Shown in pieces: positions 22,443-48,906 of a DNA stretch of 55,235 bases. The stretch's first letter is position 1, and each line of letters opens with the position of its first letter. Below the pieces are notes generated by a model. That model saw nothing but the letters and a program-made list of their open reading frames with translations, made no database searches and was not told the origin of the DNA. This DNA is from a virus, in IMG/VR virus record IMGVR_UViG_3300025121_000064, positions 1 to 55,235 of that record, one strand, 5' to 3'. A program made the position numbers and the translations under genes.

Positions 22443-22471
22443 TTGACTTTTTAAAACTAACTGCGTATAAT
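22443..22471 (+). promoter_or_regulatory. Sigma70-type promoter of the virion operon
   Basis: TTGACT at 22443-22448 and TATAAT at 22466-22471 with 17 bases between, preceded by an AT-rich stretch. First promoter of the block starting at 22504. Confidence 0.92.
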
Positions 22472-22503
22472 TCGCACCCTAACATAAAAAAGGGGGTGAG
22501 AGT

Positions 22504-23634
22504 ATGGACCTGGAAGAGAGAAAGGTCTCAGCGAGAGAACTTTTAGGCACTGCCTTCGATGACCGCATGGTCCGGGAAGTGCCACAGGAGAAAATAGCGA
22601 TCTATGTTTACTCCATCGGCCCAAACAAACAGCGAGAGAATCTTACGCAAGGTCAGCCCATTGAAGGCTACCTTGACTCGGAGGATTTAGAAAAGCAGTT
22701 TGGCGTGGGCCGTTTTTATTTGGTCGCCAAGAACAAAGAGACCGGGGTGGTCATAACCCAGAAGACAGTCGACGTGATGCGTCAGACCCCGCACCCGCTG
22801 GAAGCGGCAGCCCACCAGGAGGAAGGCACCGAGGAAGAAAACGACCAGGGGATCGGCAGCGAGGTGACAGCAGTGCTGGAGTCGGTGATGGCCAAGCTGG
22901 AGGAGCTGGAGAAAAAAGTGAACCGGCCGGCCAAGTCCATCTTCGGAGACGAGAGCGAAGGCGAGCTCCAGGGCGGAACCCTGATGGAAAAGATGTTTCT
23001 CCGGATGCTGGACCAGACGGCGAACCAGAAGCAGTCCCAGGCCGAACAGATGCAGGAGGTCCTGAAGAACGCCCTGTCAGTCCAGAAGGAAGCGATGATG
23101 GCGGCCACCCAGTTCCAGATCGAGGAGAAGCGCGATGAGCTGGAGACCAGGAGAGCGGAGCGGGCCCGCCGGTGGGAACGGGAGGACATGGCGTTCGAGG
23201 CGAAGCAGGCCCTGGTAGCGAAAAGGGTTCAGGAGGTCCAGGGAGTTTCGCAGATAGACCCCGAAGGCGGGAATGCCATGACGCTGGTGGAAGCCATCAA
23301 GGACATCATCGGCGAGAAGAACAGCCTGAACATATTCGGCTTTGATCTGGGAATGCTGTTGGAACCCATCGTGCCGCAGCTGGCCAAAGCGCTGGAAGAC
23401 CGGGGCCTCTACATCGTGGCCAAGAAGCAGATGGAAATGATTATCAAGACCTCGGTGGACCGGGGCCGGATCGAAGGACAGCAGGAAGCCCTGAACGAGA
23501 TCTACACGGCCGACGAAGACCAGAAACCACAGCAAGGAGCGGAGCAACATGGACCAGATGGCGGGCAGGGTAACCCAGAACCTCAAGACAATCCAGGACC
23601 CGACGATAATCCGGGTGGTGGAGCTGGCAGTTGA
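22504..23634 (+). CDS. Scaffold-like coiled-coil protein
   Basis: 376 residues after AAAGGGGGTGAGAGT. An N-terminal 100 residues with beta character is followed by a long charged coiled coil (about 150-260) rich in Glu, Arg and Gln. The C-terminal 40 residues are Gln/Pro/Gly-rich. It is the first gene of the virion operon; the layout is compatible with a scaffold or internal structural protein, but no family is recognised. Confidence 0.7.
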   Translation: MDLEERKVSARELLGTAFDDRMVREVPQEKIAIYVYSIGPNKQRENLTQGQPIEGYLDSEDLEKQFGVGRFYLVAKNKETGVVITQKTVDVMRQTPHPLEAAAHQEEGTEEENDQGIGSEVTAVLESVMAKLEELEKKVNRPAKSIFGDESEGELQGGTLMEKMFLRMLDQTANQKQSQAEQMQEVLKNALSVQKEAMMAATQFQIEEKRDELETRRAERARRWEREDMAFEAKQALVAKRVQEVQGVSQIDPEGGNAMTLVEAIKDIIGEKNSLNIFGFDLGMLLEPIVPQLAKALEDRGLYIVAKKQMEMIIKTSVDRGRIEGQQEALNEIYTADEDQKPQQGAEQHGPDGGQGNPEPQDNPGPDDNPGGGAGS

Positions 23635-24163
23635 GGGCAGCTGGTCTCCCCAGGTGCATATGCTGGCCCAGAGAATAATCCAGGATCCGAAGCTGGAAGG
23701 ATCCACTCCTGTTGAGAAATTGTTTTACGTCTGCCAGAAGGTGATAAGATATCACCCCGACCCGATCACTGCCGAAATGATAATCTGGCCGAAGGAGATG
23801 GCCAGGCAGATATGGGATTATCTTTACGAAGGCTCCAAGGTTCAGCCGATGGAAGACTGTGACGGAAAATGCACAATGATGCTGGCTCTTTGCTTTAACC
23901 GAAGATACACCGCCCGGGCGGTGGGAGCGTGGCAGTCGCAGTATGCACCCAACCAGAAAACCATCAACCACGTTTATCCAGAGCTGAAGGTTGACAGCCA
24001 GGTGGAAGACTTCGTGAGAAAGAATCCCGCGGTGATGAGAACCTCTGACGGATGGGTCCCCATGGAAACATCGTCAACCACTCTGAAGTTCGGAGAACAG
24101 CGCAAGACTGTGGTCCCAATGACCAGGTACTACGCCAGGGTTGACGGGGTGGAAATCAGATAA
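23549..24163 (+). CDS. Transglutaminase-like cysteine protein
   Basis: 204 residues, ATG at 23549 after AAGGAGCGGAGCAAC, overlapping the previous gene by 86 bases. A DCDGKC motif near residue 104, INHVYPEL near 141, and WVPMETS near 170 give the Cys-His-Asp/Glu order of the transglutaminase-like fold, which often acts as a peptidase. Encoded among virion genes, it could be a maturation or cross-linking enzyme. A pseudo-enzyme cannot be excluded. Confidence 0.6.
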   Translation: MDQMAGRVTQNLKTIQDPTIIRVVELAVEGSWSPQVHMLAQRIIQDPKLEGSTPVEKLFYVCQKVIRYHPDPITAEMIIWPKEMARQIWDYLYEGSKVQPMEDCDGKCTMMLALCFNRRYTARAVGAWQSQYAPNQKTINHVYPELKVDSQVEDFVRKNPAVMRTSDGWVPMETSSTTLKFGEQRKTVVPMTRYYARVDGVEIR

Positions 24164-24187: not shown

Positions 24188-25612
24188 ATGTCTTACGCAA
24201 TTCAAGGCCAGGTCGGAGTCGCCCGCCGGAGACGGCAGGTTTCACGTCAGGTGGGAGCCAAGGGCAGTCTTACGATGTCGTCCACCGGGAACCGGATGGC
24301 CTACGGCACCAGCCAGAGCCAGAATTACAACACCATGGACGAGGGCATGGATGCCCAGGTGGGTTATCCGGGTGAGCAGAAGGGCGGCCGTGGATCCTCA
24401 ACCGGCGGAAGACCTGAAGGCCGGAAGATCACCACGCAGAAGATGCAGAAGGACGGCGTCAAGGTTGTGGTAACTGACGGAGTGGTTACCGGCACCGCCC
24501 TGACAGCGGAGGCCATCCAGCAGTTGATACGAGAACTGCCCAGGATGAACGCCATGCAGCGCCATGCGGCCATGAAGGTGATCATCGCTTATAAACTGGC
24601 CAACCCGGATGCCCAGGTGGGAGCCCTGGCGGATGACCCGGTGGTCCAGACCGCAGCTGCGGTAGACCCGACCGGCTTGGTTGGCAAAGCGGTCTCAATA
24701 CAGAACGCCATCAAGAATCTGTTCGGCGGCGGGATGAAGGAAAAGATGAAACAGCGGGAAGCTGTCATAGAGACCTTCAAAACTGCTCAGGCTGAAATGC
24801 AGAAAATAGTGGATGCTTTTCATGCCAGCCCTGCCGGAAGGTGGGCCAACGATACCAGCGTCAAGTACTGGAACCCCGGTCTGAACGACTACAATATGCT
24901 CCGGTGGGCATTGGACCCGTTCAATCAGTGGATCATGGGCGTTTATTATCCGAAGGTAATCAACGATGGATCCAAGAACAAAACTCAAGGGACAGCCAAT
25001 TCCCAGGCAGCTCTCGGCATGGAAGCAAATGCCGCATCAATAGCCGGTGAGAAAACTGCCGATGGGAGCACGAATATATTTCTGATTCAGGCGGAACGGA
25101 TGGCCAAGGTGAACGAGTCGTTCATCAAACTTGAAGCCGAGAAGCTGAAGGCCAAACCCACCCAGCAGGATCTGGCTGTCGCAGCCACAGCCCTGACCAA
25201 TTCTTCAGACCCCAAGAGCCAGAACCTCGGCACTTCCATCACCACTGCCCAGAACCAGACCGGCAAGACCGAAGCCCAGGCCGCAGTTGACCTCAGCAAG
25301 ACCGCCCAGTACCCAACCATCACCGAAGGCACTCCGGTCCCGGCCAACACCCCGTTCGTGGTGGGTTACGATGTCGGAGCCGATGTGACCCGGGACGTGA
25401 AGCCGGGCGACACAGTGAAGAAGGGCGAGGTCGTGAGGGCGCAGGTTCCGGTGGCAGTCCGTGGCGGTGTGGTGGTCAAGGTTTCCGACAGCATGGTGCA
25501 GAAGGTCTGGGGAACCACCACCGGAAAGGTCGGAGTGATACTCGGAGGGAGCGCCCTGATCCTCGGCGGAGGGTTCCTCGTCAAGAAGATGATGGCCAAA
25601 CGCAATAAATAA
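24188..25612 (+). CDS. Virion-module protein with C-terminal membrane anchor
   Basis: 474 residues. Basic Gly/Ser-rich N-terminal stretch (SYAIQGQVG, then a VARRRRQ run), helical middle, Thr/Gln-rich segment, and a terminal GVILGGSALILGGGFLVKK membrane anchor. Contains QVG four times (first copy at 24209-24217, residues 8-10). Likely an internal or membrane-linked structural protein. Confidence 0.65.
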   Translation: MSYAIQGQVGVARRRRQVSRQVGAKGSLTMSSTGNRMAYGTSQSQNYNTMDEGMDAQVGYPGEQKGGRGSSTGGRPEGRKITTQKMQKDGVKVVVTDGVVTGTALTAEAIQQLIRELPRMNAMQRHAAMKVIIAYKLANPDAQVGALADDPVVQTAAAVDPTGLVGKAVSIQNAIKNLFGGGMKEKMKQREAVIETFKTAQAEMQKIVDAFHASPAGRWANDTSVKYWNPGLNDYNMLRWALDPFNQWIMGVYYPKVINDGSKNKTQGTANSQAALGMEANAASIAGEKTADGSTNIFLIQAERMAKVNESFIKLEAEKLKAKPTQQDLAVAATALTNSSDPKSQNLGTSITTAQNQTGKTEAQAAVDLSKTAQYPTITEGTPVPANTPFVVGYDVGADVTRDVKPGDTVKKGEVVRAQVPVAVRGGVVVKVSDSMVQKVWGTTTGKVGVILGGSALILGGGFLVKKMMAKRNK

Positions 25613-26197: not shown

Positions 26198-27532
26198 ATG
26201 AGCTATGCACAGATCGGTCAGGGTGATCCGCTGAGAAGCGGACCCGAGAGGGAAAAGATGACCCAGATGGACATCGCCAAGCTTCCGAAGCCCGGGGACG
26301 ACATCATCTACGCAGTCCGTCAGATCCCGACCACAGCGCCGGAGCCCGACACCAGCATCAGCGGAGTGGGGGCAGGTGAGAAAGCCATCGGAGACTACAA
26401 CCCAAAGCACCCGGAGTTCCAGGCGGCCTATGACCCGATCAAGAAGTCCGCGAAGATAAACGACCAGCAGAAACGATCAGCCCTGAATATCCTGGATTAC
26501 GTTGACGCCAACTGGGACAAGGCCCTGACCGACCCGGTGCTGATGAAGGCTCTGAAGTCAAAACTCGACGTTGCGACATCTTATCTGGGAACCCTGGAGA
26601 ACATTAAAGAAGACGCCAAGATCACCTTCGGAAAGATCTTCGACCCGGCCAAGTTCATAGCGAAAACGACACAGGTGGCGAAGGCTGTCATTTATACTCC
26701 GGCCCAGATTGCCCAAGCCGAGAAGAACATCAACGACTTCTGTTCCGTCTGGGCCAACACCCTGATACAGAAACAATACTGCGACCGGCAGCTTCGCAAC
26801 TTCAGGACGCTGGCATTATCCCAGGGCAAACAGGTGACAGACCCCGATGTGAAGATCATCCTCGACGGATACAGCTCCGCCTCAAAGAAACTGATGGACC
26901 AGCTCTACGCAATGGAGCCGACCATCAAAGGGTTTGCCTCAAAGGACAATTCATTCTACGACGCATTGAACACGGCGGTCCGTCTGGCCCAGACCGAAGG
27001 AAAAGGTTCACTGACCTCTGCAAGCGGGACCAGGGTTACGGCCACACTGATCTCGGGCGACAAGATACCGGCAGACCAGGTGGGAGTTCCAGTGGGCGTG
27101 ATAATGGTTGGCATCATAGTGGTTGGTCTGGTATTCACCATGAGCAAAGCGTTGGCCGCCGGAGCCGAGGTGATCACCCGTCAGAACAACTACAAGATCA
27201 ACTCAAAGACCATCGCCGGCATCGACGAGTCTGCGGAGCGCCAGAGAAAAGCCTGGGAGGATTTCAAGGCCGGCAAGATCACCGCAGTCGAACGGGACGC
27301 CATCATCAAGCAGGAAGAACAGGTTCAGAAGAACCTGAAGGAAGTCCAGGACAAAGGGGTGGACAACAAAAAGAGCATGGACATTCCTTGGGCCCCTTTC
27401 GCCGTAGGTGCTGGCGTATTCTTGATAGGATGGATCGCATACAAGAAGGGCTGGATACAACAGAGCATGAGTGCCCTCCAGGGCGGGGGGCTGGCGGGGA
27501 ACCTGATGAAAGGAATCACGGGTCCAAAGTAA
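26198..27532 (+). CDS. Virion-module protein with two membrane segments
   Basis: 444 residues. Starts SYAQIGQGD, like the start of the 24188 protein. A hydrophobic IMVGIIVVGLVF segment near residue 310 and a second one (PFAVGAGVFLIGWIAY) near residue 400 are likely membrane passes. Contains DQVGVPVG. A structural membrane protein is the simplest reading; no family recognised. Confidence 0.65.
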   Translation: MSYAQIGQGDPLRSGPEREKMTQMDIAKLPKPGDDIIYAVRQIPTTAPEPDTSISGVGAGEKAIGDYNPKHPEFQAAYDPIKKSAKINDQQKRSALNILDYVDANWDKALTDPVLMKALKSKLDVATSYLGTLENIKEDAKITFGKIFDPAKFIAKTTQVAKAVIYTPAQIAQAEKNINDFCSVWANTLIQKQYCDRQLRNFRTLALSQGKQVTDPDVKIILDGYSSASKKLMDQLYAMEPTIKGFASKDNSFYDALNTAVRLAQTEGKGSLTSASGTRVTATLISGDKIPADQVGVPVGVIMVGIIVVGLVFTMSKALAAGAEVITRQNNYKINSKTIAGIDESAERQRKAWEDFKAGKITAVERDAIIKQEEQVQKNLKEVQDKGVDNKKSMDIPWAPFAVGAGVFLIGWIAYKKGWIQQSMSALQGGGLAGNLMKGITGPK

Positions 27533-29201: not shown

Positions 29202-30383
29202 ATGGCTACCATAGCCGAAATCGCCAAGAACCCGGCAGTGCGTCCGGTCAAGGCGATTGACCAGCTGGCCAAGCAAGGCCACTCCCCCGATGTGATCGCC
29301 AGGATGATAAACGAGAAGCTGCGGGCTGCCGGTGAGAAGAAATACCAGCTGACTGCCGCCTCCGTCCGTTCATACCTGGGGATCCATACCGCAGGCCCGA
29401 AGGTCGTCTACAAGAAGCACAAGAAGTCCGGGATGCGGGTCCCCGTCACCCTGTCCACCGAGCAGGTCCTGGCCCTGCGCCAGAAAGCTTCCGCCCGGGC
29501 CAAGGCCCGCAGGAGCGAGATCCAGAGCACCGGCTTCGAAGGCTTAGAGCAGGCGTATGCCCGCAGAGCCGGAAAAGGCGGAGTGCCGCACATCACCAGC
29601 AAGGTGCGTGAGCGGTTGCAGACCGAAGCCTATCTCCGCGGTCAGCTGAATGCCCTGAAGTCCAAGCTGGGCATGAAGAGCAAAGCGGCTTCCAAGCGCC
29701 AGGATTACATCACCTCACGGCTGGCCCTGCCGACCATCGGATCCCAGGTCGGTAAATATGCCAACCGGCGCAGAGTCGGCGGCATGGTCGCCATGAACCC
29801 GGCCTTCGGCAATCCCTCGTTCAACTTCACCAAGGAAGCCATCATGGGCAACGTGGTTTCCGGCGGACAGACCGCACTGGGCGTGGTGGCCGGAGTCGCC
29901 GCTGCCAAGTACGGGAACGACCTGGTGGTCGAGAAGATCATGCAGTCCGTGTTCAAGAAACAGGCCGGCGACAAGCTCTCCATCTGGCAGAGACTGGCCA
30001 CTGCCGCCATCACCGGCGTCGTGGTCCCGGGCATGGCCCGTTCATTCCTGCCCCGTGAGGAGTGGGTTGACAGGGTGGCCGACGGCATGGTAGCCGGTTC
30101 TGCCCTGTATGTCCTGGGCGGCATCGAATACCAGGGCAAGCCCGTCATCAACGTGGGCCAGATGATCGGTGCCAGCGACGATGTGGTCATCGACCGCAGC
30201 GTCCAGGCTTCCGAGAACATCCCCGGCGTGCAGGCTTACGGCTCAGAGCGTTACGTCATAGACAGCCCGGTTTCCGCCTATGACCAGAACGAGGACAGGG
30301 AATACGTCGAAGGCAACGACACCATGACCGACAACCTGGTGGGCGGAGACTACGACCTGACCGAGAACCCCGAACTGCGGTAA
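29202..30383 (+). CDS. Basic virion-module protein with hydrophobic segments
   Basis: 393 residues after ATAGGAGGAACACCC. The N-terminal 190 residues are very basic and helical (many Lys/Arg; one SQVG copy near residue 183). Two glycine/alanine-rich hydrophobic stretches follow (about 205-245 and 265-310). The last 60 residues are acidic. Such a charge layout could place a DNA-contacting head on a membrane protein. No family recognised. Confidence 0.7.
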   Translation: MATIAEIAKNPAVRPVKAIDQLAKQGHSPDVIARMINEKLRAAGEKKYQLTAASVRSYLGIHTAGPKVVYKKHKKSGMRVPVTLSTEQVLALRQKASARAKARRSEIQSTGFEGLEQAYARRAGKGGVPHITSKVRERLQTEAYLRGQLNALKSKLGMKSKAASKRQDYITSRLALPTIGSQVGKYANRRRVGGMVAMNPAFGNPSFNFTKEAIMGNVVSGGQTALGVVAGVAAAKYGNDLVVEKIMQSVFKKQAGDKLSIWQRLATAAITGVVVPGMARSFLPREEWVDRVADGMVAGSALYVLGGIEYQGKPVINVGQMIGASDDVVIDRSVQASENIPGVQAYGSERYVIDSPVSAYDQNEDREYVEGNDTMTDNLVGGDYDLTENPELR

Positions 30384-30472: not shown

Positions 30473-31189
30473 ATGGCCAACCCCAACATCGTTCCCCGCA
30501 CCGGCACCGGCCTGATCCGTCAGCAGTCGTTGCCCCAGGGTGCCCAAAAAGGTCTGGTCGCACAGGTCCGGAAAATCGTGCGGATCAGCATGGGCCCCCT
30601 GTTCCACCGGCAGCTCCTGACCGGCCTGGCCGGACAGCAGGAGATCACCTTCTTCGCCAACCGGCCGGCGGCCGGCGCCCTGTCCTGGTGGATGGGCAAC
30701 TTCAAGAATGACTACATCAAAGTAGCCACCTTGCTGTTCGGCGTGCGCCTGTATATCATCGGCTCGGGTGCCACCGCCACCAACCACTCCGGTATCATCG
30801 TCACCACTGCGGCTACTTTCGTCATCGCCAACGCCTTCATGCTGACCTGGAACCAGCTGAACAACGGCCTGGTGCGGATGAAGGTCAACGACACCGAGCA
30901 TCCCTGGATCGACGCCTCGAAGATGCTGGCTCCGTTAAAGTACACCGAGTGGGGCTTTGATGACGGCGTCGGTAACGCCTCCTACGCCACCTTCCCGCAG
31001 AACGACACCATGGCCGGCTACTTCATGTTCAAGAAGTCGTCCCGCGAGATCGACCCCATCAGCATCAGCAAGGACGACGAGTTCTCCATCACCATGAGAC
31101 TCCCGGCGGCCCTGGCTGCTGCCCCGGCCGACACCTACGTCAGCTGCGACCTGATCACCGAAGCCTCGCAGATGCTGTACGCCGGCTAA
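30473..31189 (+). CDS. Candidate major capsid protein A (beta-rich)
   Basis: 238 residues after CAAGAGGAGAAAATACCC. Successive hydrophobic beta strands separated by Gly/Asn/Thr turns fill the protein; QQEITFFANRPAAG and FSITMRLPAALAA are typical. No transmembrane helix is evident. Length and composition suit a single jelly-roll capsid protein like those of tailless viruses, but there is no recognisable signature. It is followed by a strong hairpin and another beta-rich protein of similar size. It may also be a major virion protein of another fold. Confidence 0.5.
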   Translation: MANPNIVPRTGTGLIRQQSLPQGAQKGLVAQVRKIVRISMGPLFHRQLLTGLAGQQEITFFANRPAAGALSWWMGNFKNDYIKVATLLFGVRLYIIGSGATATNHSGIIVTTAATFVIANAFMLTWNQLNNGLVRMKVNDTEHPWIDASKMLAPLKYTEWGFDDGVGNASYATFPQNDTMAGYFMFKKSSREIDPISISKDDEFSITMRLPAALAAAPADTYVSCDLITEASQMLYAG

Positions 31190-32320: not shown

Positions 32321-32382
32321 TAGGGGGCGTCATAGTCCTGGGTGTGGTACTGGCCAGAAAGCCAATAACGAGCGGAGCTAAA

Positions 32383-33063: not shown

Positions 33064-33073
33064 AGGAGACCCT

Positions 33074-35658: not shown

Positions 35659-35662
35659 AACC

Positions 35663-37909: not shown

Positions 37910-37911
37910 TA

Positions 37912-39342: not shown

Positions 39343-39354
39343 GAAAGGATCCCC

Positions 39355-39684
39355 ATGAGCCCCCAATTTAAAGAAGCCCTGTCCCGGGAGGGCAAGCGTC
39401 TGGCCTCCCGAAAGTTCATCGCCTGGATCATGTTTTCCGGCCTGTACGCCGTGGTGACCGGGGTGTTCGTGCGGACCTGCTCCATGGCCACCTGGGAATC
39501 CTACGAAGCCATAGAGAACGCCCGGGCCGTCACGGAAGCCCTGGGAGCCATCAAGGTACTGTATGACGCCTGGGTTTACATGACGGGATCCTACGTGATG
39601 ATCACCCTGCTTTACATGGGGTCCAACCTGGCTGAGAAGTTCCTGGGAGCCAAGTTCTCGGGCACCGGACCGGCCACCCAATAG
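39355..39684 (+). CDS. Membrane protein, holin-like
   Basis: 109 residues. Two hydrophobic segments (FIAWIMFSGLYAVVTGVFV, YVMITLLYMGSNL) separated by a helical loop, with a charged start. The shape fits a class II holin, though a virion membrane protein is possible. Confidence 0.6.
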   Translation: MSPQFKEALSREGKRLASRKFIAWIMFSGLYAVVTGVFVRTCSMATWESYEAIENARAVTEALGAIKVLYDAWVYMTGSYVMITLLYMGSNLAEKFLGAKFSGTGPATQ

Positions 39685-39687
39685 GCA

Positions 39688-39716
39688 TTGACAATTAACC
39701 ATCAAAGAGCTATAAT
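39688..39716 (+). promoter_or_regulatory. Consensus sigma70-type promoter
   Basis: TTGACA at 39688-39693 and TATAAT at 39711-39716 with a 17-base spacer: perfect consensus, placed 23 bases before the next start codon. It gives surface-gene expression independent of the upstream operon. Confidence 0.92.
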
Positions 39717-39739
39717 AACGGCTTAAAAGGAGAACGATC

Positions 39740-40465
39740 ATGGCTGGAGAGAGACTGCCAGTAAATATATTCCAGGGCGTGCTGCCGGGGGCGTACCTGT
39801 TCCTGGACGATGGGAGTGATGATAGTAAGTGGATCAACTCTGTGGCGAGTCCTTTTCAAAGTATTGTTGCTGGTGATACTTATGGATACAACGGAAAGGG
39901 TTTAAGATTCACATATGATCAAGCTCTTGGAGGAATTCAAACCGCAAGAAGAAGTATACTCCCAGTAGGTAATGTTGGGACTGAACGTTTCTTCGGATTT
40001 ATTCTTCGATCAAACCTCTATTCACTTACTCCTATTCAAGCTGCTGGTATCATTTCGACAATTACAATAACGTTTCCTGTTACTTATTGGACCGATCTTG
40101 GTGGAGGTCGGTGGGAAATGAAAGAGGCATTCGCAAACACAACCTTCGCCGATCTTTATTGGGCTCCTTCTACAAGTTTTCATTCTGACATCAGTGTCGT
40201 TGGAAGTCAGGTTACGAGAATATGGCCCACTACGATTCCTCAAGAAGATCCCTGGTATAGAATTTCTTTTATGATGAATGGCCTAACTCCAGCATTAAGT
40301 ATTGTAAATTCTTTACATCGCATTCCTGGATCCGTTCTCGTTCCATCTGCTTTATGGCCAACAAATTCAATACAAGTATCGTGGCAATTCGGAGGTTTAC
40401 CTGGAGTTGATGTCTACTTTGACCTCGACCAGATCTGGATCTCCGACACCGAAAACAGAGTATAA
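39740..40465 (+). CDS. Surface/receptor-binding-like protein (AT-rich centre)
   Basis: 241 residues after AAAAGGAGAACGATC. Beta-rich, many Ser/Thr/Gly/Phe, and a conserved-looking end (DQIWISDTENRV). Bases 39830-40380 are markedly AT-rich while both ends match the genome, a mosaic typical of exchanged receptor-binding domains. Placed directly behind its own promoter. Confidence 0.65.
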   Translation: MAGERLPVNIFQGVLPGAYLFLDDGSDDSKWINSVASPFQSIVAGDTYGYNGKGLRFTYDQALGGIQTARRSILPVGNVGTERFFGFILRSNLYSLTPIQAAGIISTITITFPVTYWTDLGGGRWEMKEAFANTTFADLYWAPSTSFHSDISVVGSQVTRIWPTTIPQEDPWYRISFMMNGLTPALSIVNSLHRIPGSVLVPSALWPTNSIQVSWQFGGLPGVDVYFDLDQIWISDTENRV

Positions 40466-40477
40466 GAAAGGCTCACC

Positions 40478-41038
40478 ATGCGAGTCATAAACTTCCCCCA
40501 CCAGCACCGGATCATAGCGCCCGGGCAGTACATCGAGTCCTTCAGGGTTCCCTGCGAGGGCACAGCATCCAGGGTAGAAGGCTCGATCATCATAGTGGCT
40601 AAGGACTACACCAACCAGCCCACGTTCGACCAGGCGGACATCACCTGGCTGAACACAGTCTTCCACATGATGCCCAACAACACCCTGACCTTCGCTGCCA
40701 CCTTTGCGGGCGCTGCAGTGACCCCACTGGTGACATTCAAGGATTCAGACGTGGGCGTTCATATCGAGGGCGTGATATCCACCGGCGGTGAGCTGCTGAC
40801 CATCACGCTGAACCTGACGGCAGTGCCGGATCCCTTCATGCTTTACATCAGACCCATGCTCAGGGTTTACGGGCTGACCACCGGAACGGCCTTTGACGGC
40901 CAGAAGCGTCAGGGCACGGAACTCCTGTTCACCCCGCCCAACAGCGCCATCCCCTTCAAGTACGACAGCGCGAATCCGATGGTGGACGGACAGGTTGGCG
41001 GGATCGAAGTCATCAAAGAGGTAGTCAGGAATAAATAA
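40478..41038 (+). CDS. Beta-rich virion-module protein, 186 aa
   Basis: ATG after AAAGGCTCACC. Strand-rich; contains DGQVGGIEV near the C-terminus. No family recognised. Likely a structural component. Confidence 0.65.
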   Translation: MRVINFPHQHRIIAPGQYIESFRVPCEGTASRVEGSIIIVAKDYTNQPTFDQADITWLNTVFHMMPNNTLTFAATFAGAAVTPLVTFKDSDVGVHIEGVISTGGELLTITLNLTAVPDPFMLYIRPMLRVYGLTTGTAFDGQKRQGTELLFTPPNSAIPFKYDSANPMVDGQVGGIEVIKEVVRNK

Positions 41039-41068
41039 CCATCAACCAATAAAAGAGAGGTGAACAAA

Positions 41069-41290
41069 ATGGCTCCATTTGCTTTCAGGAAACATCACGG
41101 ATCCGTCAACCGGACCAACATGACCCCGGAGATGGCCCAGGCCGCCGTGGAACTCTCCACCCCGCTCCCGTCAGTGGACGAGCAGGCGGAGATGCAGCCG
41201 GAGGACTCAGAGCAGTCAGTGGCCGCTCCGGTGGAACAGGAACCCCCGGCCGAGATACCGGCCAAGAAGTCAAAAAAGGGTGTGAAGTGA
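41069..41290 (+). CDS. Small acidic protein, 73 aa
   Basis: ATG at 41069 (AGAGAGGTG upstream). Acidic Gln/Glu/Pro-rich with a lysine-rich end (KKSKKGVK). No family recognised. Confidence 0.65.
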   Translation: MAPFAFRKHHGSVNRTNMTPEMAQAAVELSTPLPSVDEQAEMQPEDSEQSVAAPVEQEPPAEIPAKKSKKGVK

Positions 41291-41296
41291 ACTGAT

Positions 41297-41319
41297 AAAA
41301 TACCCAAACAGGGCATTTT
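41297..41319 (+). terminator. Possible weak hairpin terminator
   Basis: AAAATACCC and GGGCATTTT arms (one mismatch) flank an AAACA loop. Weak but placed between two genes. Confidence 0.35.
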
Positions 41320-41355
41320 ATAATAACACTTCAATTCAATCAAAGGAGACTCATC

Positions 41356-41967
41356 ATGGGAAACTTCTGCGGATCAAACCACTGGCGGGGCCAGCGGCTG
41401 GACGTCACCCAGCTGTTCATCGCCGCCAACACCGCTGCCAGGGTAGCCCTGGGCAACAACGTGCCGGGACCGACCCAGGCCAACGTGGGCGACATGTGCA
41501 CCCAGACCGACACCTCGCAGTGGTACATCATGTCGGCCAAGTCCACCCCGTCGGTTGACGGCGACTGGACCGCGATCACCCCGGCCAACGCCGCCCTGAT
41601 CGCCAACACCCCGGCCGGCGGAATAGCCGCCGTAAACGTGCAGGCCGCCATCAACGAGCTGGACACCGAGAAGGGCAACGTGGCCGGCATAGTCACAGTC
41701 GGACCGCTGGCCCTGGCCGGAGCCGGAGCCCTGGCCGCCAACACCACCGCCATGGAAGCCATCGCCGTGGCCGGTATGCCGGCTGATGCCGTCATAATCG
41801 GTTTGCAGCTGTCGGCTGCCCCGATAGCGGGTGCGGTATTCGCCCAGCCCAGAAACGACGGAGCCGGAAACGCCGAGGTCACCTACGGCAACATCACGGC
41901 CGCCCCCATCGCTGTGGCCGCCGATGCAGCCATGTACATAACCTACATCTCTCCCGCCGCCTGGTAA
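41356..41967 (+). CDS. Ala/Gly/Thr-rich virion-module protein, 203 aa
   Basis: ATG after AAAGGAGACTCATC. About 60 residues of mixed composition, then a long low-complexity Ala-rich part (AAINELDTEKGNV, GPLALAGAGALAANT). Looks like a fibre or decoration protein. Preceded by a TATAAT box at 41319-41324 without a good -35 box. Confidence 0.65.
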   Translation: MGNFCGSNHWRGQRLDVTQLFIAANTAARVALGNNVPGPTQANVGDMCTQTDTSQWYIMSAKSTPSVDGDWTAITPANAALIANTPAGGIAAVNVQAAINELDTEKGNVAGIVTVGPLALAGAGALAANTTAMEAIAVAGMPADAVIIGLQLSAAPIAGAVFAQPRNDGAGNAEVTYGNITAAPIAVAADAAMYITYISPAAW

Positions 41968-41989
41968 ACCAGGAGAAAGTGAGTAATTT

Positions 41990-42280
41990 ATGGCAGAGAT
42001 AAGAAGGATCCGTAACTTCGTCGTGGTGGACGTCCGGACCCCCGAGGAGAAGGCGGCTGACATGGCCAGGGGCACAGCCAACCTTCCCAAGAAGATGCAG
42101 CGGCCACCCCGGGAAATAGCCCCTGCGGTCAGCTTGGACTCCGTTCCGGCCCAGTTCAGGGTTCGCGGAACCCCGGTAAAGGCCACCTTGCAGGCTCAGG
42201 CTCCGGCAACCCCCCAGAAGGCTCCGGTTAAGCCAGAACCTATCAAGAAGGGCCTCTTTAAGGGCAAAACGAAGAAGTAG
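41990..42280 (+). CDS. Basic protein, 96 aa
   Basis: ATG after AGGAGAAAGTGAGTAATTT. N-terminal strand (IRNFVVVDVRTPEEKA), then Pro/Ala/Lys-rich, ending KKGLFKGKTKK. Last plus-strand gene before the convergent terminator. Confidence 0.65.
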   Translation: MAEIRRIRNFVVVDVRTPEEKAADMARGTANLPKKMQRPPREIAPAVSLDSVPAQFRVRGTPVKATLQAQAPATPQKAPVKPEPIKKGLFKGKTKK

Positions 42281-42291
42281 TCCACGGACAG

Positions 42292-42335
42292 AAAAAAGGC
42301 CGTAGGCGCCTTAAATGGCTTCCTACGGCCTTTTT
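42292..42335. terminator. Bidirectional Rho-independent terminator
   Basis: AAAAAGGCCGTAGG (42293-42306) and CCTACGGCCTTTTT (42322-42335) form a perfect 14-base stem with A and T tracts on both sides. It separates the plus-strand virion operon from the minus-strand cassette. Confidence 0.95.
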
Positions 42336-42345
42336 AGTAAACAGA

Positions 42346-42513
42346 TTATCTTTCTACCCAGTCCACCGCCTTGGGGTTATCCCTGGCAGCCTTCCTGAGC
42401 AGTTCCTTGACCTGTTTGACGGCCCGGTTCATCCCCTCGCAGGGGTACAGACCGGCAGCTTTGGCCTCCACCCGGCCGGTCTTGGAGTCGATGTTGAATG
42501 TAATTTGAGCCAT
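42346..42513 (-). CDS. DUF2997 protein, second copy
   Basis: 55 residues. AQITFNIDSKTGRVEAKAAG and a helical LYPCEGMNRAVKQV region follow the DUF2997 pattern of the 4986 protein. GGAGGTTAAATA precedes the start. It is the last gene of the minus-strand cassette. Confidence 0.68.
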   Translation of the reverse strand: MAQITFNIDSKTGRVEAKAAGLYPCEGMNRAVKQVKELLRKAARDNPKAVDWVER

Positions 42514-42716
42514 TATTTAACCTCCGCGCTTGAATTTGGCCATAAAAGACAGGTAAAGTCAGTAAAATAGTGCTGTTCGTTCTTGCACAGGCCCCAGATC
42601 AAGACATCCATGAACCTGATTCCAAAAATAGTTTTCCCATTCTGAGTGGGAATATTGGTATAGAGTCCCAGGATCTCAGCCCCAAAGAGCCTCAGTTGGA
42701 AGTACCACGGCTTCAT
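42513..42716 (-). CDS. Hypothetical protein, 67 aa
   Basis: ATG after GAGAGGTGATT on the minus strand. Contains KTIFGIRFMDVLIWGLC, a hydrophobic stretch, and a Cys in TDFTCLLWP. Its 3' end overlaps the DUF2997 start. No family recognised. Confidence 0.6.
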   Translation of the reverse strand: MKPWYFQLRLFGAEILGLYTNIPTQNGKTIFGIRFMDVLIWGLCKNEQHYFTDFTCLLWPNSSAEVK

Positions 42717-42718
42717 AA

Positions 42719-43360
42719 TCACCTCTCTATAAGTTGTTCTTTGAATGTTTCCCGGATCTTCGGCACTGCCAGTCCGTAGCGCTTCAGGGCTCCGTAGATG
42801 ACCTGGCGGGACATATTGAAGGTGTTCTCGACCTTCTTGGTCTTGAAGCCCCTTTTGAACATCTCGGCTGCAGTGCGGGCCTGCTCCTCGTTCATCTTGC
42901 ATTTCCGGCCGAACTTGACACCCGCGGCACGTCTGGCCGACTGCATCCGCAGGTTCCGTTCCCGGTCAGCCTCCCACTCCTTGTTGGCCAGGTAGCCATA
43001 AATGGCCACCATCAGCTGGCCCTCCGGAGTGGTGAAGTCTCCCCCCTGGTCAAGTGAAATCAGCTTGGCTTTGATCTTGGATACGATGGTGTTCACTGTG
43101 ATCACCATGTCGCCTATGCCCATCCTGGTGAACCTGGACAGCTCGGTGACAACGATGATGTCCTCTGAGGTCAGATCCTTCAACAGCTCGGTCATCCCGG
43201 GCCGGTTGGCCTTCTTCCCCGAGATACCCTTGTCGACGTAGAACTTGCAGTCCGGCTCAGAGAAGTCTGGAAACCTGTGCTTCAGGTAGCGCACGATGGC
43301 ATGGCGCTGGGTTTCGATATCCTGGACCCCGGTGGATGTTCTGATGTAGGCTCGTATCAC
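42719..43360 (-). CDS. Serine recombinase (resolvase/invertase family)
   Basis: 213 residues, GTG start (AAAGGAGG upstream, minus strand). IRAYIRTST holds catalytic Ser9; GISGKKANRPGM and VTELSRFTRMG are resolvase hallmarks, and a C-terminal helix-turn-helix (SRQVIYGALKRYG) binds DNA. Size fits the small resolvase/invertase group. It may resolve genome dimers or invert a segment; no obvious crossover repeats were seen nearby. Confidence 0.9.
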   Translation of the reverse strand: MIRAYIRTSTGVQDIETQRHAIVRYLKHRFPDFSEPDCKFYVDKGISGKKANRPGMTELLKDLTSEDIIVVTELSRFTRMGIGDMVITVNTIVSKIKAKLISLDQGGDFTTPEGQLMVAIYGYLANKEWEADRERNLRMQSARRAAGVKFGRKCKMNEEQARTAAEMFKRGFKTKKVENTFNMSRQVIYGALKRYGLAVPKIRETFKEQLIER

Positions 43361-43563
43361 GTCTGGCCTCCTTTCTCTTCCCAGCTGACCACTGGCGGGC
43401 CCATCAGGGTCAAACAGGGCTGCATCTCGGGCATGGTACCCATCTGCTCGAAGCAGTTCTTATTGGGGCACAGCGGCTTCTTTCCGTCCTTCCACTCCTT
43501 GTGGGACATCAGGACCTCGACCGACTGGTTGCAGTTGGGGCAGTAGAATTCATAAAGAGGCAT
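43357..43563 (-). CDS. FmdB-type zinc-ribbon protein
   Basis: 68 residues, minus strand. MPLYEFYCPNCNQSVEVLMS with CPNKNC matches the FmdB-like zinc ribbon family, small regulatory-type proteins of unclear role. Its 3' end overlaps the recombinase start by four bases. Confidence 0.75.
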   Translation of the reverse strand: MPLYEFYCPNCNQSVEVLMSHKEWKDGKKPLCPNKNCFEQMGTMPEMQPCLTLMGPPVVSWEEKGGQT

Positions 43564-43750
43564 CTTGCACCCCCAGGGCTTCTACCAGCCTCTCGTTCCT
43601 GACCGGGTTGCAGATGGCGTGCCTGATCGCCTTGGCCTCTTTCTTCAGGCAGGGATAACACCGGGAATTCAGGAAGGCATCCCCGCAGTTGATGGTGGTT
43701 CCTTCAGCTCCGCAGACGGCACAGCATCCCGGACGACCCTCGTTTGCCAT
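43550..43750 (-). CDS. Zinc-binding protein, 66 aa
   Basis: Minus strand, AGGAGGAAGT before the start. CCAVCGAEG and CGDAFLNSRCYPCLKKE give two CxxC-like pairs. First gene of the minus-strand operon. Confidence 0.68.
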   Translation of the reverse strand: MANEGRPGCCAVCGAEGTTINCGDAFLNSRCYPCLKKEAKAIRHAICNPVRNERLVEALGVQDASL

Positions 43751-43796
43751 ACTTCCTCCTCTTGTAATTTAATCAGTGTTGTGTTCAACTGTAATT

Positions 43797-43825
43797 ATTA
43801 TACTTAAAGATTGTCAGTTTGTCAA
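43797..43825 (-). promoter_or_regulatory. Consensus sigma70-type promoter, minus strand
   Basis: On the minus strand TTGACA (43820-43825) and TATAAT (43797-43802) with a 17-base spacer: perfect consensus. It drives the zinc-ribbon/recombinase/DUF2997 operon. Confidence 0.92.
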
Positions 43826-43895
43826 GCCCTCACCATAACTTTCCCCTTGTTAAGAAAGGGGCAGTTTATTACTTAACTTCTTACGGAGATCACCC

Positions 43896-44651
43896 ATGTC
43901 AAACTTCAAAAGGCGCATATTCTCTACTGAATATATCTGCAACAAGTCCGTCGTCATGTCTGAGATCTCCGATGTGACCGATCTGGACGTCATTGGTTTC
44001 CGTTCCTATAACCCAGTGACAATCGACTTCAGGGATCCCTGCTCCTATGCCGGCCTTTTGGCCAATGGAGCGTTTCACATGATGGCAGGTGGATATATAG
44101 GCGAGAAAAGCAATCAGATCACCAATTACACCAACCGAATCAACTTCGCCTGCTGCGTGTACGAATGGCAGGCTTTGGGAGCGCGGAATATGGTCCCGGG
44201 AATCAACTATGGGATTGGCATCAACACCTTCTACGCCGTCGACGCCATAACTCATGCAAAAAGCATCCAGCTTCACATCTCGTCTACCTATCGCCTTCCC
44301 GGACCAGCCTGGAATAACTGGCTTTACGTTGAAGAAGGAGGCGGAACAACTTTACACACCTTCACCCCCCTCAACTCAAGGGACATCTCCACCGGGAAAA
44401 TCAAGATCACTTCCACCAGGATAAACGCCAACCTCAAGCGCTACGTCTTCAGCGGTTGGGACAGAACCACTGGATTGGTCTGGACCTATACCTTCGACGA
44501 TACCCGGGCTTTGGCTGGGGACTCTCCGATAATCTGGGGCTTTGATGAAGAAGCCGGCGGATACGACTCTGCCGACGGATACTGGTCCTCAATTCGTTCA
44601 TTCTCCGTTGCCGACACGGACCTTCCCCTGGGTGCAAACACAACTCCATAA
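43896..44651 (+). CDS. Surface-like protein A (paralogous pair)
   Basis: 251 residues after ACGGAGATCACCC. Begins SNFKRRIFSTEYIC; the next gene begins GHFRKRIFDTPALP and has a similar layout of aromatic, beta-rich segments. C-terminal DTDLPLGANTTP. Probably a virion surface protein. Confidence 0.68.
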   Translation: MSNFKRRIFSTEYICNKSVVMSEISDVTDLDVIGFRSYNPVTIDFRDPCSYAGLLANGAFHMMAGGYIGEKSNQITNYTNRINFACCVYEWQALGARNMVPGINYGIGINTFYAVDAITHAKSIQLHISSTYRLPGPAWNNWLYVEEGGGTTLHTFTPLNSRDISTGKIKITSTRINANLKRYVFSGWDRTTGLVWTYTFDDTRALAGDSPIIWGFDEEAGGYDSADGYWSSIRSFSVADTDLPLGANTTP

Positions 44652-44687
44652 ACCACTTATTTTTAATCTTTTATTAGGAGACCTATT

Positions 44688-45479
44688 ATGGGACACTTCA
44701 GAAAACGCATCTTCGACACCCCAGCCCTGCCTGACAAGCAGTTTCCATCTGTGCTGGCGTCAGCGGCCGACCTTAACGCAGCGGGGTTCTTCACCTGGAA
44801 CGGCGTGGACGGATACACTACTCCCATCACCACCCACTTCGATTACTTCCAGAACCAGATCATTCCCTTGGTCTGTGGTTCCCCCTGGGCCCCTGGCATG
44901 GCCGTCATATCCGAGTTTACTCCCACCTGGCAGGCCGCTTTCGCCAACACTTTAGAAGACCGGCGGGACTTCCTAAGTCAGCTGGTAGATCTCAGGGCTG
45001 TCGGTTTTAACGGCGGGGTAGCCCTGGGCATTGGAGGAGTGATGGAAGCATGGAGCTGGTCCAATGGATACTTAAATTGGATTGATGTCGAGGTCAATTT
45101 CACGGGAGTGGCCTATGAATGGTTGTATTCCTTCAATGGCGCTCCATTCGTATCCTTCCTCACAGTGACCAACTTCGTCGACGCCTACAGTAATATCATC
45201 AAGATGAACATGGTCCGCAATGGAGCCAACCAGAAGGATCTCCAGTTCACAGTCTACGATTCGAGCGTCGGGGCCTTTGTCACCTCTGCTGTGATTCCCT
45301 GGGCCGTTGCCGGAATAGGCGACGAGATATTCTGCGGAGGGTTCCAACCGAATGGTACCGGTTCCGGACTGGTATCCAGCTTTTTTACTTCAGTGGCCAT
45401 CTGCCGCAACTGCATCATCAAGAGCTCCAACATCGACCATGCAGCCTACGCCCTGGCCAACCCCCTTTTCCAGATGTAA
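44688..45479 (+). CDS. Surface-like protein B (paralogous pair)
   Basis: 263 residues after TTAGGAGACCTATT. Same N-terminal plan as the previous gene and a beta-rich body (GVAYEWLYSFNGAPFV parallels CCVYEWQALGARNMV). Likely arose by duplication; may recognise a different receptor or ligand. Confidence 0.68.
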   Translation: MGHFRKRIFDTPALPDKQFPSVLASAADLNAAGFFTWNGVDGYTTPITTHFDYFQNQIIPLVCGSPWAPGMAVISEFTPTWQAAFANTLEDRRDFLSQLVDLRAVGFNGGVALGIGGVMEAWSWSNGYLNWIDVEVNFTGVAYEWLYSFNGAPFVSFLTVTNFVDAYSNIIKMNMVRNGANQKDLQFTVYDSSVGAFVTSAVIPWAVAGIGDEIFCGGFQPNGTGSGLVSSFFTSVAICRNCIIKSSNIDHAAYALANPLFQM

Positions 45480-45504: not shown

Positions 45505-46011
45505 ATGGACGCAGTACTAGTCAATCCGGCTCAGCCCATCTCCCAGGAGGAGGCTGACAGGCTGATGGCCGAGTATCAGGCCACCCTGGACAAGCTGGCG
45601 GCCGCAGGTCTGAAGCCACCCCGGGCCATCCGGCCTCCGGTCTCTTTCCAGCCCACCGGACAGGACGAGATGATGGAGCTGGTCCGTCAGGCATGGACCG
45701 ACCCCAACGGCAGCGTGCTGGTCTTCTTCCCGGCGTCAGGCGGAGCCAGGGTGGTCAAGCGGGCGCCAGAGCTTGAGCCTGCCCCGGCCAGGTCTCCCCT
45801 GTATTTCACCATCCACCGCACCGGCACCAGCAAGCCCACCAAGGTCTCCCCCGGCGGAGTCAAGCGGAACTTCGGGGTGGCACTGAAGATCGCCACTTAC
45901 GAGGATTCCACCCGTCTGAGCAAGGCCACCGGGAAAACAGTCAACCCCGGGGACGTCATAGCCTCTGGCTACAATGTCGAGGCCAGCGACCCGACCGAAA
46001 CCGAAGTATAA
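45505..46011 (+). CDS. Hypothetical protein, 168 aa
   Basis: ATG after AAAGGAGCAATATC. An N-terminal helix (EEADRLMAEYQATLDKL) then Pro/Arg-rich and beta segments. Last base adjoins the next start. Could be a partner of the large protein that follows. Confidence 0.7.
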   Translation: MDAVLVNPAQPISQEEADRLMAEYQATLDKLAAAGLKPPRAIRPPVSFQPTGQDEMMELVRQAWTDPNGSVLVFFPASGGARVVKRAPELEPAPARSPLYFTIHRTGTSKPTKVSPGGVKRNFGVALKIATYEDSTRLSKATGKTVNPGDVIASGYNVEASDPTETEV

Positions 46012-48906
46012 ATGATCCAGCAGCTGAAACAAAAAGTCACTCAGCTCGACCGGAGATTCATCTCAGCCCCCTCCACTGCCGAACGTATCCAGGCGGTGGA
46101 GGAGCTGGGGGATCTCCTGTTTGCCTTTACGGACACCCTGGCCTCTGAGATCAGGGCGCTGATGCCGTTGCGGTTCCAGGTCAGGTCGGCCAAGTCGGAG
46201 AAGGTCTCCAGGCTGTTCGATCCCGAGCTGGATGACCGGCCGGAACCCGCCCAGGAGACCACCCTCCCGGCCACTCCCGCCCAGTTAAAAATGCCGGCCC
46301 TGCCGGACCGCTTCCTGGCTGCCATGTCCAACACCGGAGCCATGGAGAAGCTGAAGCTGGAGCAGGAGATAGTCCGGTCAGTTCTCCATTACAGTTTCAT
46401 GCCCTCCGAGAACTGGCTTTACATGACCCCCGAGATGGAGGAGATCGTCCAGAACTACTTCGCCTCGCGCCTCACCCGGGACGAGTACCTGAAGCAGATG
46501 GAAGACCTGAAGGCGTTCCAGGACCCCGTGCCCATAGATCTTCTGGTCTATGAGATCCGGGACTTCCTGGATGACCGCTACCAGATCGTGGACCTGATCG
46601 ACCGCGGGGTGGCTCCCACGGCCCGGGGCCGCAACCCACTGGCTTCAAGGATCCAGTCCAACCTGCAGATGTTCGTGGAGATCTTCCGGCACCTGGCCTA
46701 CATCGACGCTGCCATCTCAGGCTGGGTAGACAGGCTCTACGGAGGGCCCCTGCACACCAAACTGGCTCCGGAGCTCTACAAGGACCTGACCTTCTTCATG
46801 TTTGAGTCCACCTCTGTCCACGAGGCGTGCGTCAAGCAGGCTTTGGGTCAGAAGTCCTCCAAGTTCTCCGACCCCATCACCGGGCTTCAGCCGGTTGACC
46901 GGCCCATCTCCAGCACCTTCGCCTCGGACCCTGTCAGATTTGCCGTCAGGTATGCGTCACTGATGGCTGCTGTGGCCAAACCAGCCTCCATGGATGACAG
47001 ACGGAAGGAACCATTCGACTGGTCATTCCTGGTCAACCCCAGGGTTTACAACGTATCCCGGGAGGCCGAGGGCCAGATCATCTTCCAGGAAGTGCTGGGA
47101 ACCAGGATCCCCTACCGGAGAACACCAGAGGACAGAACCTGCTTTGTGGCTGTCAGGACCATGCTGAACGCTATGATGCTGGGCTACCAGCCGTCAGCTC
47201 AGGGCCAGACCATCGCTCAGGCTTACGAGCCCCTGCTGCCTACTGAAACCCCGGCCGACTTCAAGAAGCTCCTGGCCTGCGTGGGAGATCTCCTGCTTCC
47301 GCATCCCGACGTCCACCGGGCCTTTTTTGAGGAACTGTTAAAGAATCTTTCGTCACCGGACGTGGTCACGGAGGTATTCACCAGGGCGGTCCGCACCGGA
47401 AAGTTCGACGTGGTTCTGCGTCAGGAAGCCTTCAACCGCACCAAGGCCATGCTTGACACCCGGTTAAAGAAGCACCAGCTGGACAAGTCCGAGCACCAGG
47501 CCCTGGTGGACCAGTCGGCCACCGGCATCGCTGCGGAGCCAATCACCGAAGTCGTCAACAGGTTCACCTGGGAAGACCATGCCTACCTGCTGTCCGTGTT
47601 CGCCTTCCCCAACCTGGTGCAAGACGGGAAGATCATATCCCTGGAGTCGTTCTTTGCCGAGCTGAAGAAGACCAACAAGCAGAAGCTGATCGAGAACGTG
47701 CTGAAGCCCGGTCACTACTACCACCACCAGACCAAGTCCTTCAACCAGTCCACCCAGAAGTGGGAGTACCACCAGGAACGCCGGTTCAGGCCCAACTATC
47801 TCTTTTTGTGGATGCAGCATATTCTGAACTTCGTGAACCTGCACAATCTCAGGCTCCCAGACGGGAAGATCGACGTGGCCAGGACCCAGAAGTACGCCCA
47901 TGTCGCCACCTGGATCGACCCCGACACCGGGACACCCATGCAGGGCCCCTTGACAGTGCGACGGCCGGAGTACGGGCTTCCCCCGTTCTTTTTCAAGGTT
48001 CAGACCAGCCAGGGCAAGGATTATCCAGTCGTAGTCAGGAACACCTACTCGTTACGCAACCGCAGGGCCACCTTCCATGACTTCCAGATCTTCATGCTCC
48101 TAGACGAGAACAACATCACAGAGCTGGACCTGGGCGGATACGTCAAGGACGGGGTGATGCTCCCGGTCAACGAGGAGAACCTGAACCGGCTATCCAACCA
48201 GCTGTTGTTTAAAGAACGGGTCACCCTGCCGGACGGAAGCCTGTCGCCTTTAGAAGTCAACAAGCACAACGTCAGCATCCTGACCACCATGATGAACGAC
48301 GACGTGGAGGATGAGATCAGAATGGCTGAGATGGCGCTGCAGGACCAGGTGAGGCATGTGGCGGAGTTCGTAGAAGCCGAGAAGGAATCCCTGGAGGGTT
48401 ACAGCCAGAACGAACAGAACCAGATCATCTATGACAAGCTCTCCGATCAGGACTACGACCTGCCGGCCTTACGCAAGATGGCCGACATCATGCAGAAGAT
48501 CCGTGAAGTGGAGGAACGTCCTGAAGATTCCGTGATGCCCGACCCCCAGCAGAACATCCCAGAGCAAAAGCCCGAACCCCGCACCCGGAGGCTCTCTCCC
48601 AGGGAGATCACCAGGAAGATGGAGATCGACTATGCTCAGGCGGAGTCCGACGAGGAGAGATCCAGGATCATTCACGATGCCCAGAACGAGCTGATGCTCT
48701 GGGAGGAACGCCTGGAAGACGAGCCGGAGGAGAAGCCGCTGAAGATCAAACCCATCATCAAGCTGCCCATCGGCCGCGAGATGCTTCAGTCAGACGAACA
48801 GTTCAAGACCCGACTCAAGAACATCCTGGAACGCAAGTCCCCGCCAGGTTTCTCAGAAGAGGAGAAGCTGGTGTGGCGTGAACAACTCAGTTCAAACATT
48901 AAGTGA
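46012..48906 (+). CDS. Very large protein of unknown fold, 964 aa
   Basis: Longest gene in the window. Mostly helical with many Glu, Leu and Arg; LYMTPEMEEIVQNYF and the YHHQTKSFNQSTQKWEYHQE segment are notable. The C-terminal about 200 residues are acidic/charged and coiled. No transmembrane helix, P-loop or catalytic motif was seen. The size fits a structural or assembly factor. It is not a recognisable tape measure, portal or polymerase. Confidence 0.75.
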   Translation: MIQQLKQKVTQLDRRFISAPSTAERIQAVEELGDLLFAFTDTLASEIRALMPLRFQVRSAKSEKVSRLFDPELDDRPEPAQETTLPATPAQLKMPALPDRFLAAMSNTGAMEKLKLEQEIVRSVLHYSFMPSENWLYMTPEMEEIVQNYFASRLTRDEYLKQMEDLKAFQDPVPIDLLVYEIRDFLDDRYQIVDLIDRGVAPTARGRNPLASRIQSNLQMFVEIFRHLAYIDAAISGWVDRLYGGPLHTKLAPELYKDLTFFMFESTSVHEACVKQALGQKSSKFSDPITGLQPVDRPISSTFASDPVRFAVRYASLMAAVAKPASMDDRRKEPFDWSFLVNPRVYNVSREAEGQIIFQEVLGTRIPYRRTPEDRTCFVAVRTMLNAMMLGYQPSAQGQTIAQAYEPLLPTETPADFKKLLACVGDLLLPHPDVHRAFFEELLKNLSSPDVVTEVFTRAVRTGKFDVVLRQEAFNRTKAMLDTRLKKHQLDKSEHQALVDQSATGIAAEPITEVVNRFTWEDHAYLLSVFAFPNLVQDGKIISLESFFAELKKTNKQKLIENVLKPGHYYHHQTKSFNQSTQKWEYHQERRFRPNYLFLWMQHILNFVNLHNLRLPDGKIDVARTQKYAHVATWIDPDTGTPMQGPLTVRRPEYGLPPFFFKVQTSQGKDYPVVVRNTYSLRNRRATFHDFQIFMLLDENNITELDLGGYVKDGVMLPVNEENLNRLSNQLLFKERVTLPDGSLSPLEVNKHNVSILTTMMNDDVEDEIRMAEMALQDQVRHVAEFVEAEKESLEGYSQNEQNQIIYDKLSDQDYDLPALRKMADIMQKIREVEERPEDSVMPDPQQNIPEQKPEPRTRRLSPREITRKMEIDYAQAESDEERSRIIHDAQNELMLWEERLEDEPEEKPLKIKPIIKLPIGREMLQSDEQFKTRLKNILERKSPPGFSEEEKLVWREQLSSNIK

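Follow-up and report, generated by a model that had tools for sequence, protein, structure and literature searches.

A circular 55-kb virus genome whose virion module resembles that of Salisaeta icosahedral phage 1: a probable tailless, membrane-containing phage

The window analysed here is the entire IMG/VR virus record IMGVR_UViG_3300025121_000064 (55,235 nt). Its main subject is a large plus-strand virion module (22504-48906), which the original prediction had attributed to a tailless, possibly membrane-containing double-stranded DNA (dsDNA) virus of an undescribed lineage. We consider it reasonably likely that the record is the complete genome of a lytic, apparently non-integrating, tailless icosahedral phage with single-jelly-roll capsid proteins and an internal membrane, similar to Salisaeta icosahedral phage 1 (SSIP-1). 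The first part of the module contains the following genes, which are named by their first coordinate:

22504-23634, plus strand: opens the virion module; a small N-terminal domain is followed by a long charged coiled coil and a helical C-terminus
23549-24163, plus strand: transglutaminase-like protein (DCDG...HVY...DGW) with its own Shine-Dalgarno (SD) sequence; overlaps 22504
24188-25612, plus strand: 474-residue virion-module protein; C-terminal tail anchor VGVILGGSALILGGGFLV plus KKMMAKRNK
26198-27532, plus strand: 444-residue membrane protein; two transmembrane segments, 295-313 and 396-414
29202-30383, plus strand: 393-residue protein directly before the capsid candidates; basic N-terminus, Ala/Gly-rich weakly hydrophobic segments
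30473-31189, plus strand: candidate small major capsid protein, single jelly roll, 238 residues (position; low-confidence AlphaFold2 (AF2) model and Foldseek)
31278-32075, plus strand: candidate large major capsid protein, 265 residues, probably two beta domains (AF2 model, Foldseek)
32081-32320, plus strand: small transmembrane protein (hydropathy, tail-anchor scan)

The transglutaminase-like protein 23549 was matched by blastp to gp34 of SSIP-1, which is transglutaminase-like, tail-anchored and annotated as structural, with an E value of 1.8e-4, the best all-versus-all pair among the matches listed. The same pair stood at the top of 1209 pairs compared by hhalign (84%, E 7e-6), and the alignment showed 31% identity across the DCDG, HVY and DGW blocks, suggesting that 23549 and this SSIP-1 virion protein are probably homologous. 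The next non-P-loop hhalign pair was 24188 with gp34, over 19 columns, and the tail anchor of 24188 resembles the gp34 tail (LLLGGGILLGGGYLIAQ). 23549 is possibly a maturation protease. The tripeptide Q[VI]G, often as AQVG[GA], occurs in 24188, 26198, 29202, 33892, 34819 and 40478; the module has 11 copies where 3.6 were expected, and the remainder of the window has none, an enrichment that is optimistic because the motif was chosen by eye. SSIP-1 carries AQGMG/ARGMG in gp36 and gp34, comparable to the AQVG-like sites of the window, and the latter are possible processing sites. MT839222 was considered as a viral relative through gp34 and rejected, as it encodes apparent Bacteroides-type bacterial transglutaminase proteins.

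SSIP-1 is tailless and has an internal membrane and two types of capsid protein (PMC6356626, PMC4958249). Its genome (NC_017983) is circular with 43,788 bp, and the virus is unclassified, the single known example of its kind. Both genomes are dsDNA circles of similar size (43.8 kb for SSIP-1, 55.2 kb for the window) with one large plus-strand virion module. In SSIP-1, the coiled-coil gp33 and gp34 are followed by a run of small tail-anchored proteins, the Ala/Gly-rich membrane-like gp44, gp45-gp47 (210-256 residues), the membrane-like/spanin-like gp49 and gp50, and gp54, which is transglycosylase-like with a tail anchor. In the window, the coiled-coil 22504 and 23549 are followed by the membrane proteins 24188 and 26198, then 29202, 30473, 31278 and membrane-linked lysins. 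Judged by eye, the order is thus the same: coiled coil, transglutaminase-like protein, tail-anchored protein, membrane protein, a consecutive series of small beta-type proteins (210-265 residues over the two genomes) and membrane lysin. A tail-anchored lysin and a serine recombinase (gp3 in SSIP-1, 1.6e-41) occur in both. 22504 is the positional counterpart of gp33, adjoining the transglutaminase-like gene as gp33 adjoins gp34, with no sequence-level support from hhalign (0.5%), and 29202 is that of gp44. On size and position, gp45-gp47 would be the SSIP-1 capsid proteins. The two genomes also differ, as SSIP-1 has an integrase, a 2319-residue protein and, inside its module, the AAA_25-type virion ATPase gp40 (5.3e-11), all of which the window module lacks. 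SSIP-1 had been overlooked in the original prediction: with a genome of similar size, the same module layout and one detectable homolog, it contradicts the view of a lineage without known counterpart, and at 43.8 kb it makes the statement that the window is much larger than known membrane viruses an overstatement. SSIP-1, together with P23-77 and SH1 as vertical single-jelly-roll viruses, is also a more fitting comparison than PRD1 or PM2.

The membrane content of the module was assessed first by a hydropathy census (19-residue window, cut-off at least 1.7). Eight of the 11 virion-module products previously listed as carrying membrane segments passed this cut, 29202, 36746 and 48967 falling below it; the list was broadly right. 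The module rate was 11/37, where the calls for 30473 and 41356 are probably false, and thus only modestly higher than in three tailed-phage controls under the same cut (3/28, 6/26 and 4/25). Because these controls overlap with the module, the census was discarded as proof of a membrane. Seven of the nine credible cases lie within a lysis-like stretch (32081-39684), and since most such proteins sit in the lysis cassette, membrane content alone is weak evidence. The genes of this stretch are:

32221-33063, plus strand: glucosaminidase (FlgJ-like) lysin with N-terminal membrane anchor, transmembrane segment 27-45 (PF01832 4.8e-15; TIGR02541 1.7e-19; start inferred)
33892-34494, plus strand: DUF5661-domain protein (PF18905 9.3e-11)
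34491-36659, plus strand: lysis-cassette membrane genes 34491, 35827 and 36186, spanin-/holin-like (transmembrane calls; function inferred from architecture)
37906-38472, plus strand: M15-type peptidase lysin with C-terminal tail anchor (PF13539 1.9e-9; VanY 4.9e-8; start inferred)

Tail anchors, defined as a hydrophobic stretch free of charged residues within the 42 C-terminal positions, were found in 5/36 proteins of the window module (44688 being borderline) versus 0/42 in the rest of the window. The membrane viruses SSIP-1, P23-77 and SH1 gave 8/26, 6/26 and 3/16 (17/68 in total), and three tailed phages 0/28, 1/26 and 0/25 (1/79 in total). This stricter count, unlike the census, sets membrane viruses and tailed phages apart and is the more telling of the two; it supports the presence of virion membrane proteins, without proving them.

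Packaging and tail genes were searched for by scanning the 39 module open reading frames (ORFs) one by one against Pfam, PHROGs and NCBIfam, and none matched a terminase, portal, capsid, HK97 capsid, FtsK or HerA profile. The credible matches were Glucosaminidase, VanY/M15, D12 methylase and DUF5661, the remainder being chance or generic, and the sole tail-labelled match (PHROG 326, 'tail protein with endopeptidase domain', 4.8e-4) is probably one of the lysins. A six-frame search of the genome with Terminase_6N, Terminase_3, Phage_portal, DUF87/HerA and FtsK_SpoIIIE gave 0 matches at E<=10, while control genomes were positive. Three early-region genes, 2185, 7542 and 10150, were the only ones on either strand with a genuine Walker A motif, and the search revealed no P-loop protein in 22504-48906. 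The missing terminase, portal and FtsK/HerA signatures of the original prediction are thus borne out. The 46 early and right-end ORFs contain replication-type and other early genes. The proteins in question here are:

7542-8420, plus strand: orphan P-loop ATPase, Walker A FIGVPGVGKSH, no family or phage match
10150-10905, plus strand: AAA_24/Sak4-type RecA-fold ATPase of the early region (phrog_1366 1.5e-76; AAA_24 3.9e-22), with relatives in tailed phages
46012-48906, plus strand: 964-residue protein at the module end, no family

10150 was considered as a counterpart of SSIP-1 gp40 and rejected, the similarity being limited to about 26 columns around Walker A. The protein 46012, which had been named as an example of a gene that could overturn the tailless reading as a portal, terminase or tape measure, has no transmembrane segment and gave no significant family, PDB-sequence or phage match.

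These results bear on the possibility that the window is a tailed phage that has diverged so far that its terminase, portal and capsid are no longer recognisable. Like Caudoviricetes, the window encodes replication proteins such as the Sak4-type ATPase 10150, the AAA protein 2185 and HNH endonucleases, and the spike-like 41356 contains a fibre-like motif (VQAAINELD); moreover, the whole module is dark, so that an absence of matches weighs less than usual. However, the large terminase, portal, HK97 capsid and any convincing tail gene of Caudoviricetes went undetected in the window, even at E<=10 for terminase and portal, no gene is tape-measure-like, and no terminase-like Walker A lies in the module on either strand. 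Tail anchors are rare in tailed-phage modules, and the layout is SSIP-1-like. We therefore regard a diverged tailed phage as unlikely.

The capsid candidates were modelled by AF2 from single sequences, and both models were poor (pLDDT 37.8 for 30473 and 40.5 for 31278). For 30473, a hand count of the 50 best Foldseek matches in the PDB gave 25 viral capsid-type jelly rolls, eight of them P23-77 VP16. The best E value was 0.034 and no individual match was significant; the enrichment itself is the evidence, and it could in part come from the predictor filling in a viral-looking sequence. For 31278, residues 1-110 were modelled as a beta domain with seven longer strands (pLDDT mostly 50-68), which matched jelly-roll/beta-sandwich domains in the PDB (nucleoplasmin-like, CBM35/36, TNF-like; best E 4.4e-3), while the viral-library matches were non-specific. 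The succession of a small and a larger adjacent beta-protein gene is comparable to VP16/VP17 of P23-77, VP7/VP4 of SH1 and gp45-gp47 of SSIP-1. A jelly-roll capsid fold is suggested for both proteins, though not established.

The Foldseek list of 30473 also includes double-jelly-roll proteins (iridovirus, D13, Sputnik), and this, together with the packaging ATPase that was not found, would fit a tailless virus of another architecture, either of the double-jelly-roll PRD1 type or a pleomorphic/non-icosahedral membrane virus without a packaging motor. However, 238 and 265 residues are short for a double jelly roll (the matched iridovirus chain has about 455-459), and the adjacent small/large pair fits single-jelly-roll viruses, so we judge such an architecture quite improbable. 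The Pfam and PHROG scans of the module gave no match to a double-jelly-roll capsid of the PRD1/PM2 kind.

The completeness of the record was examined at its ends, where the first and last 117 bp are identical. This overlap lies inside a CCAACTGGGGA-type tandem repeat, where false joins come easily, and the junction was therefore tested by reading frame. The ORF at 54821-55235 continues in frame into 1-812 across the record ends (298 + 812 bases), and the junction-spanning product is a DUF6745 protein (1.6e-11), aligned over residues 34-322, with both halves covered, to gp38 of Mycobacterium prophage prophiGD102-1, a single gene. The DUF6745 gene, split by the record ends, carries a QLG/QLR tandem repeat in its middle. 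The 55-kb genome is very probably complete and circular, and with a complete circle the packaging genes are either truly missing or present but not recognised, rather than lost to an assembly gap. An incomplete or mis-joined contig, with packaging genes on an unassembled part and ends overlapping merely through the repeat, is highly improbable, given that the join yields one in-frame gene whose halves are one gene in the prophage and that the genome already has full early, virion-module and lysis gene sets. A plasmid or other non-virion element, which the circular form and the unproven capsid would allow, is hardly credible beside two membrane-linked lysins, spanin-like genes, a phage-type replication initiator and a set of 72,556 plasmids that held no relative of the module proteins tested.

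Several observations weigh against an SSIP-1-like membrane phage. The transglutaminase-like fold is widespread, and gp34 also matched an apparent Bacteroides-type bacterial transglutaminase (5e-3). For the layout pairs other than 23549/gp34 the hhalign signal was nil, and the sequences of the capsid candidates were similar to none from SSIP-1, from P23-77 or from the phages and plasmids searched, with both models at pLDDT 38-41 and no PDB Foldseek match at E<1e-3. No packaging ATPase of the SSIP-1 gp40 kind or the FtsK/HerA kind was found in the module, and the FtsK/HerA-type ATPase belongs to the core-gene definition of the single-jelly-roll membrane viruses of the P23-77/SH1 group (PMC5332951). 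By Pfam, gp40 itself is AAA_25-like, not FtsK/HerA, so that an unconventional motor would have a precedent.

The Matsushitaviridae/Sphaerolipoviridae (Thermus phage P23-77, Haloarcula virus SH1) also have many tail-anchored virion-module proteins, and 30473 shows a weak, model-based fold-level resemblance to VP16. In contrast, their genomes of 17-31 kb are two to three times smaller and have a recognised packaging ATPase, and no sequence similarity to the window was found. IMG/VR scans with 30473, 46012, 31278, 23549, 26198, the SSIP-1 gp46/gp45 alignment and the transglutaminase alignment turned up no relative other than SSIP-1; for 26198, tblastn against phages likewise found no relatives. 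A scan with the Sak4 alignment gave 80 loci, and the stretches examined there shared no virion genes with the window; a 45-residue match of 46012 at these loci (5.7e-4, 12.5 bits) was deemed spurious. Genome-collection scans, tblastn against phages and plasmids and PDB sequence searches gave nothing useful. Because pattern-based scans catch only fairly close relatives, this lack of relatives is no proof of isolation.

Taken together, a tailless, probably membrane-containing dsDNA virus remains the likely and best explanation in view of the gene absences, tail anchors and layout, but the undescribed-lineage part of the original prediction does not hold: the window is probably a distant second example of SSIP-1's kind rather than unprecedented. 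What is new is the distance: among the viral, phage, plasmid and genome collections scanned, the module proteins queried had a relative only in SSIP-1, via one protein. In such a phage, spikes encoded at 38593-45479 would bind the host from their place at the vertices. The phage initiator 21100 would recruit the host polymerase to replicate the DNA, with Sak4-type recombination by 10150. The small (30473) and the large (31278) jelly-roll capsid protein would assemble around an internal membrane, in which tail-anchored viral proteins (24188, 26198, 29202 and others) are embedded, 23549 may cleave virion proteins at AQVG-like sites, and the glucosaminidase, M15 peptidase, spanin-like and holin-like proteins would free the progeny. 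The internal membrane, the capsid folds and the protease role of 23549 are inferred here. A bolder and more tentative proposal, which we find somewhat doubtful, is that the window belongs to a new lineage of family rank, made up of single-jelly-roll phages with large genomes and a membrane lining. In these phages a transglutaminase-fold protease (23549) would cut virion proteins at AQVG-like sites, and the motor would be of neither the terminase nor the FtsK/HerA class. It would perhaps be an ATPase of RecA or AAA fold, for which 7542 and 10150 are the two candidates.

To our knowledge, SSIP-1 has had no second example since 2012. If the SSIP-1-like reading is true, the window, as a further and larger genome in which the particle genes are arranged alike, would make SSIP-1 part of a group, not a curiosity, would extend membrane-lined phages of this kind to 55 kb, and would help to tell apart, by comparison, the capsid, membrane and spike proteins of SSIP-1. 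It is also a warning that viruses of this kind can be present in databases without a single hallmark gene being recognised.

Of 58 starts, 45 have an SD-like sequence ahead of them (background 26%), which speaks against a host typical of Bacteroidia. The remaining features of the module are:

38593-42280, plus strand: putative vertex/spike genes 38593, 39740, 40478 and 41356, with the holin-like membrane protein 39355 (from sequence)
42719-43360, minus strand: serine recombinase (DNA invertase/resolvase) between spike-like genes (Resolvase PF00239 4.2e-26)
43896-45479, plus strand: two spike-like proteins, 43896 and 44688, with similar N-termini (FKRRIF/FRKRIF)

A 3' repeat, D3, is common to 38593 and 39740. 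The recombinase may switch the spike genes or may have moved them; a repeat search did not find convincing invertible repeats. It belongs to a cluster of four minus-strand genes (42516-43750) in an otherwise plus-strand genome, which was absent from the original prediction and also encodes a 68-residue zinc-ribbon protein (Zn_ribbon_8) and two small proteins; the cluster looks like an inserted cassette. A perfect 14-bp hairpin lies nearby at 42293-42335.

In the early and right-end regions, a perfect 48-bp tandem duplication was found at 17182-17277 within the 17107 gene, and 54005-54601 encodes a radical SAM protein of 198 residues, in which the domain match is confined to the N-terminal half. 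The short motif [SN]DG[VI]R[RST]I, perhaps a docking peptide, recurs in the C-terminal parts of the unrelated early proteins 2185, 12591, 13965, 17107 and 17754, in some of which it is followed by xMP, and occurs in weaker form in 7542, 10150 and 54005.

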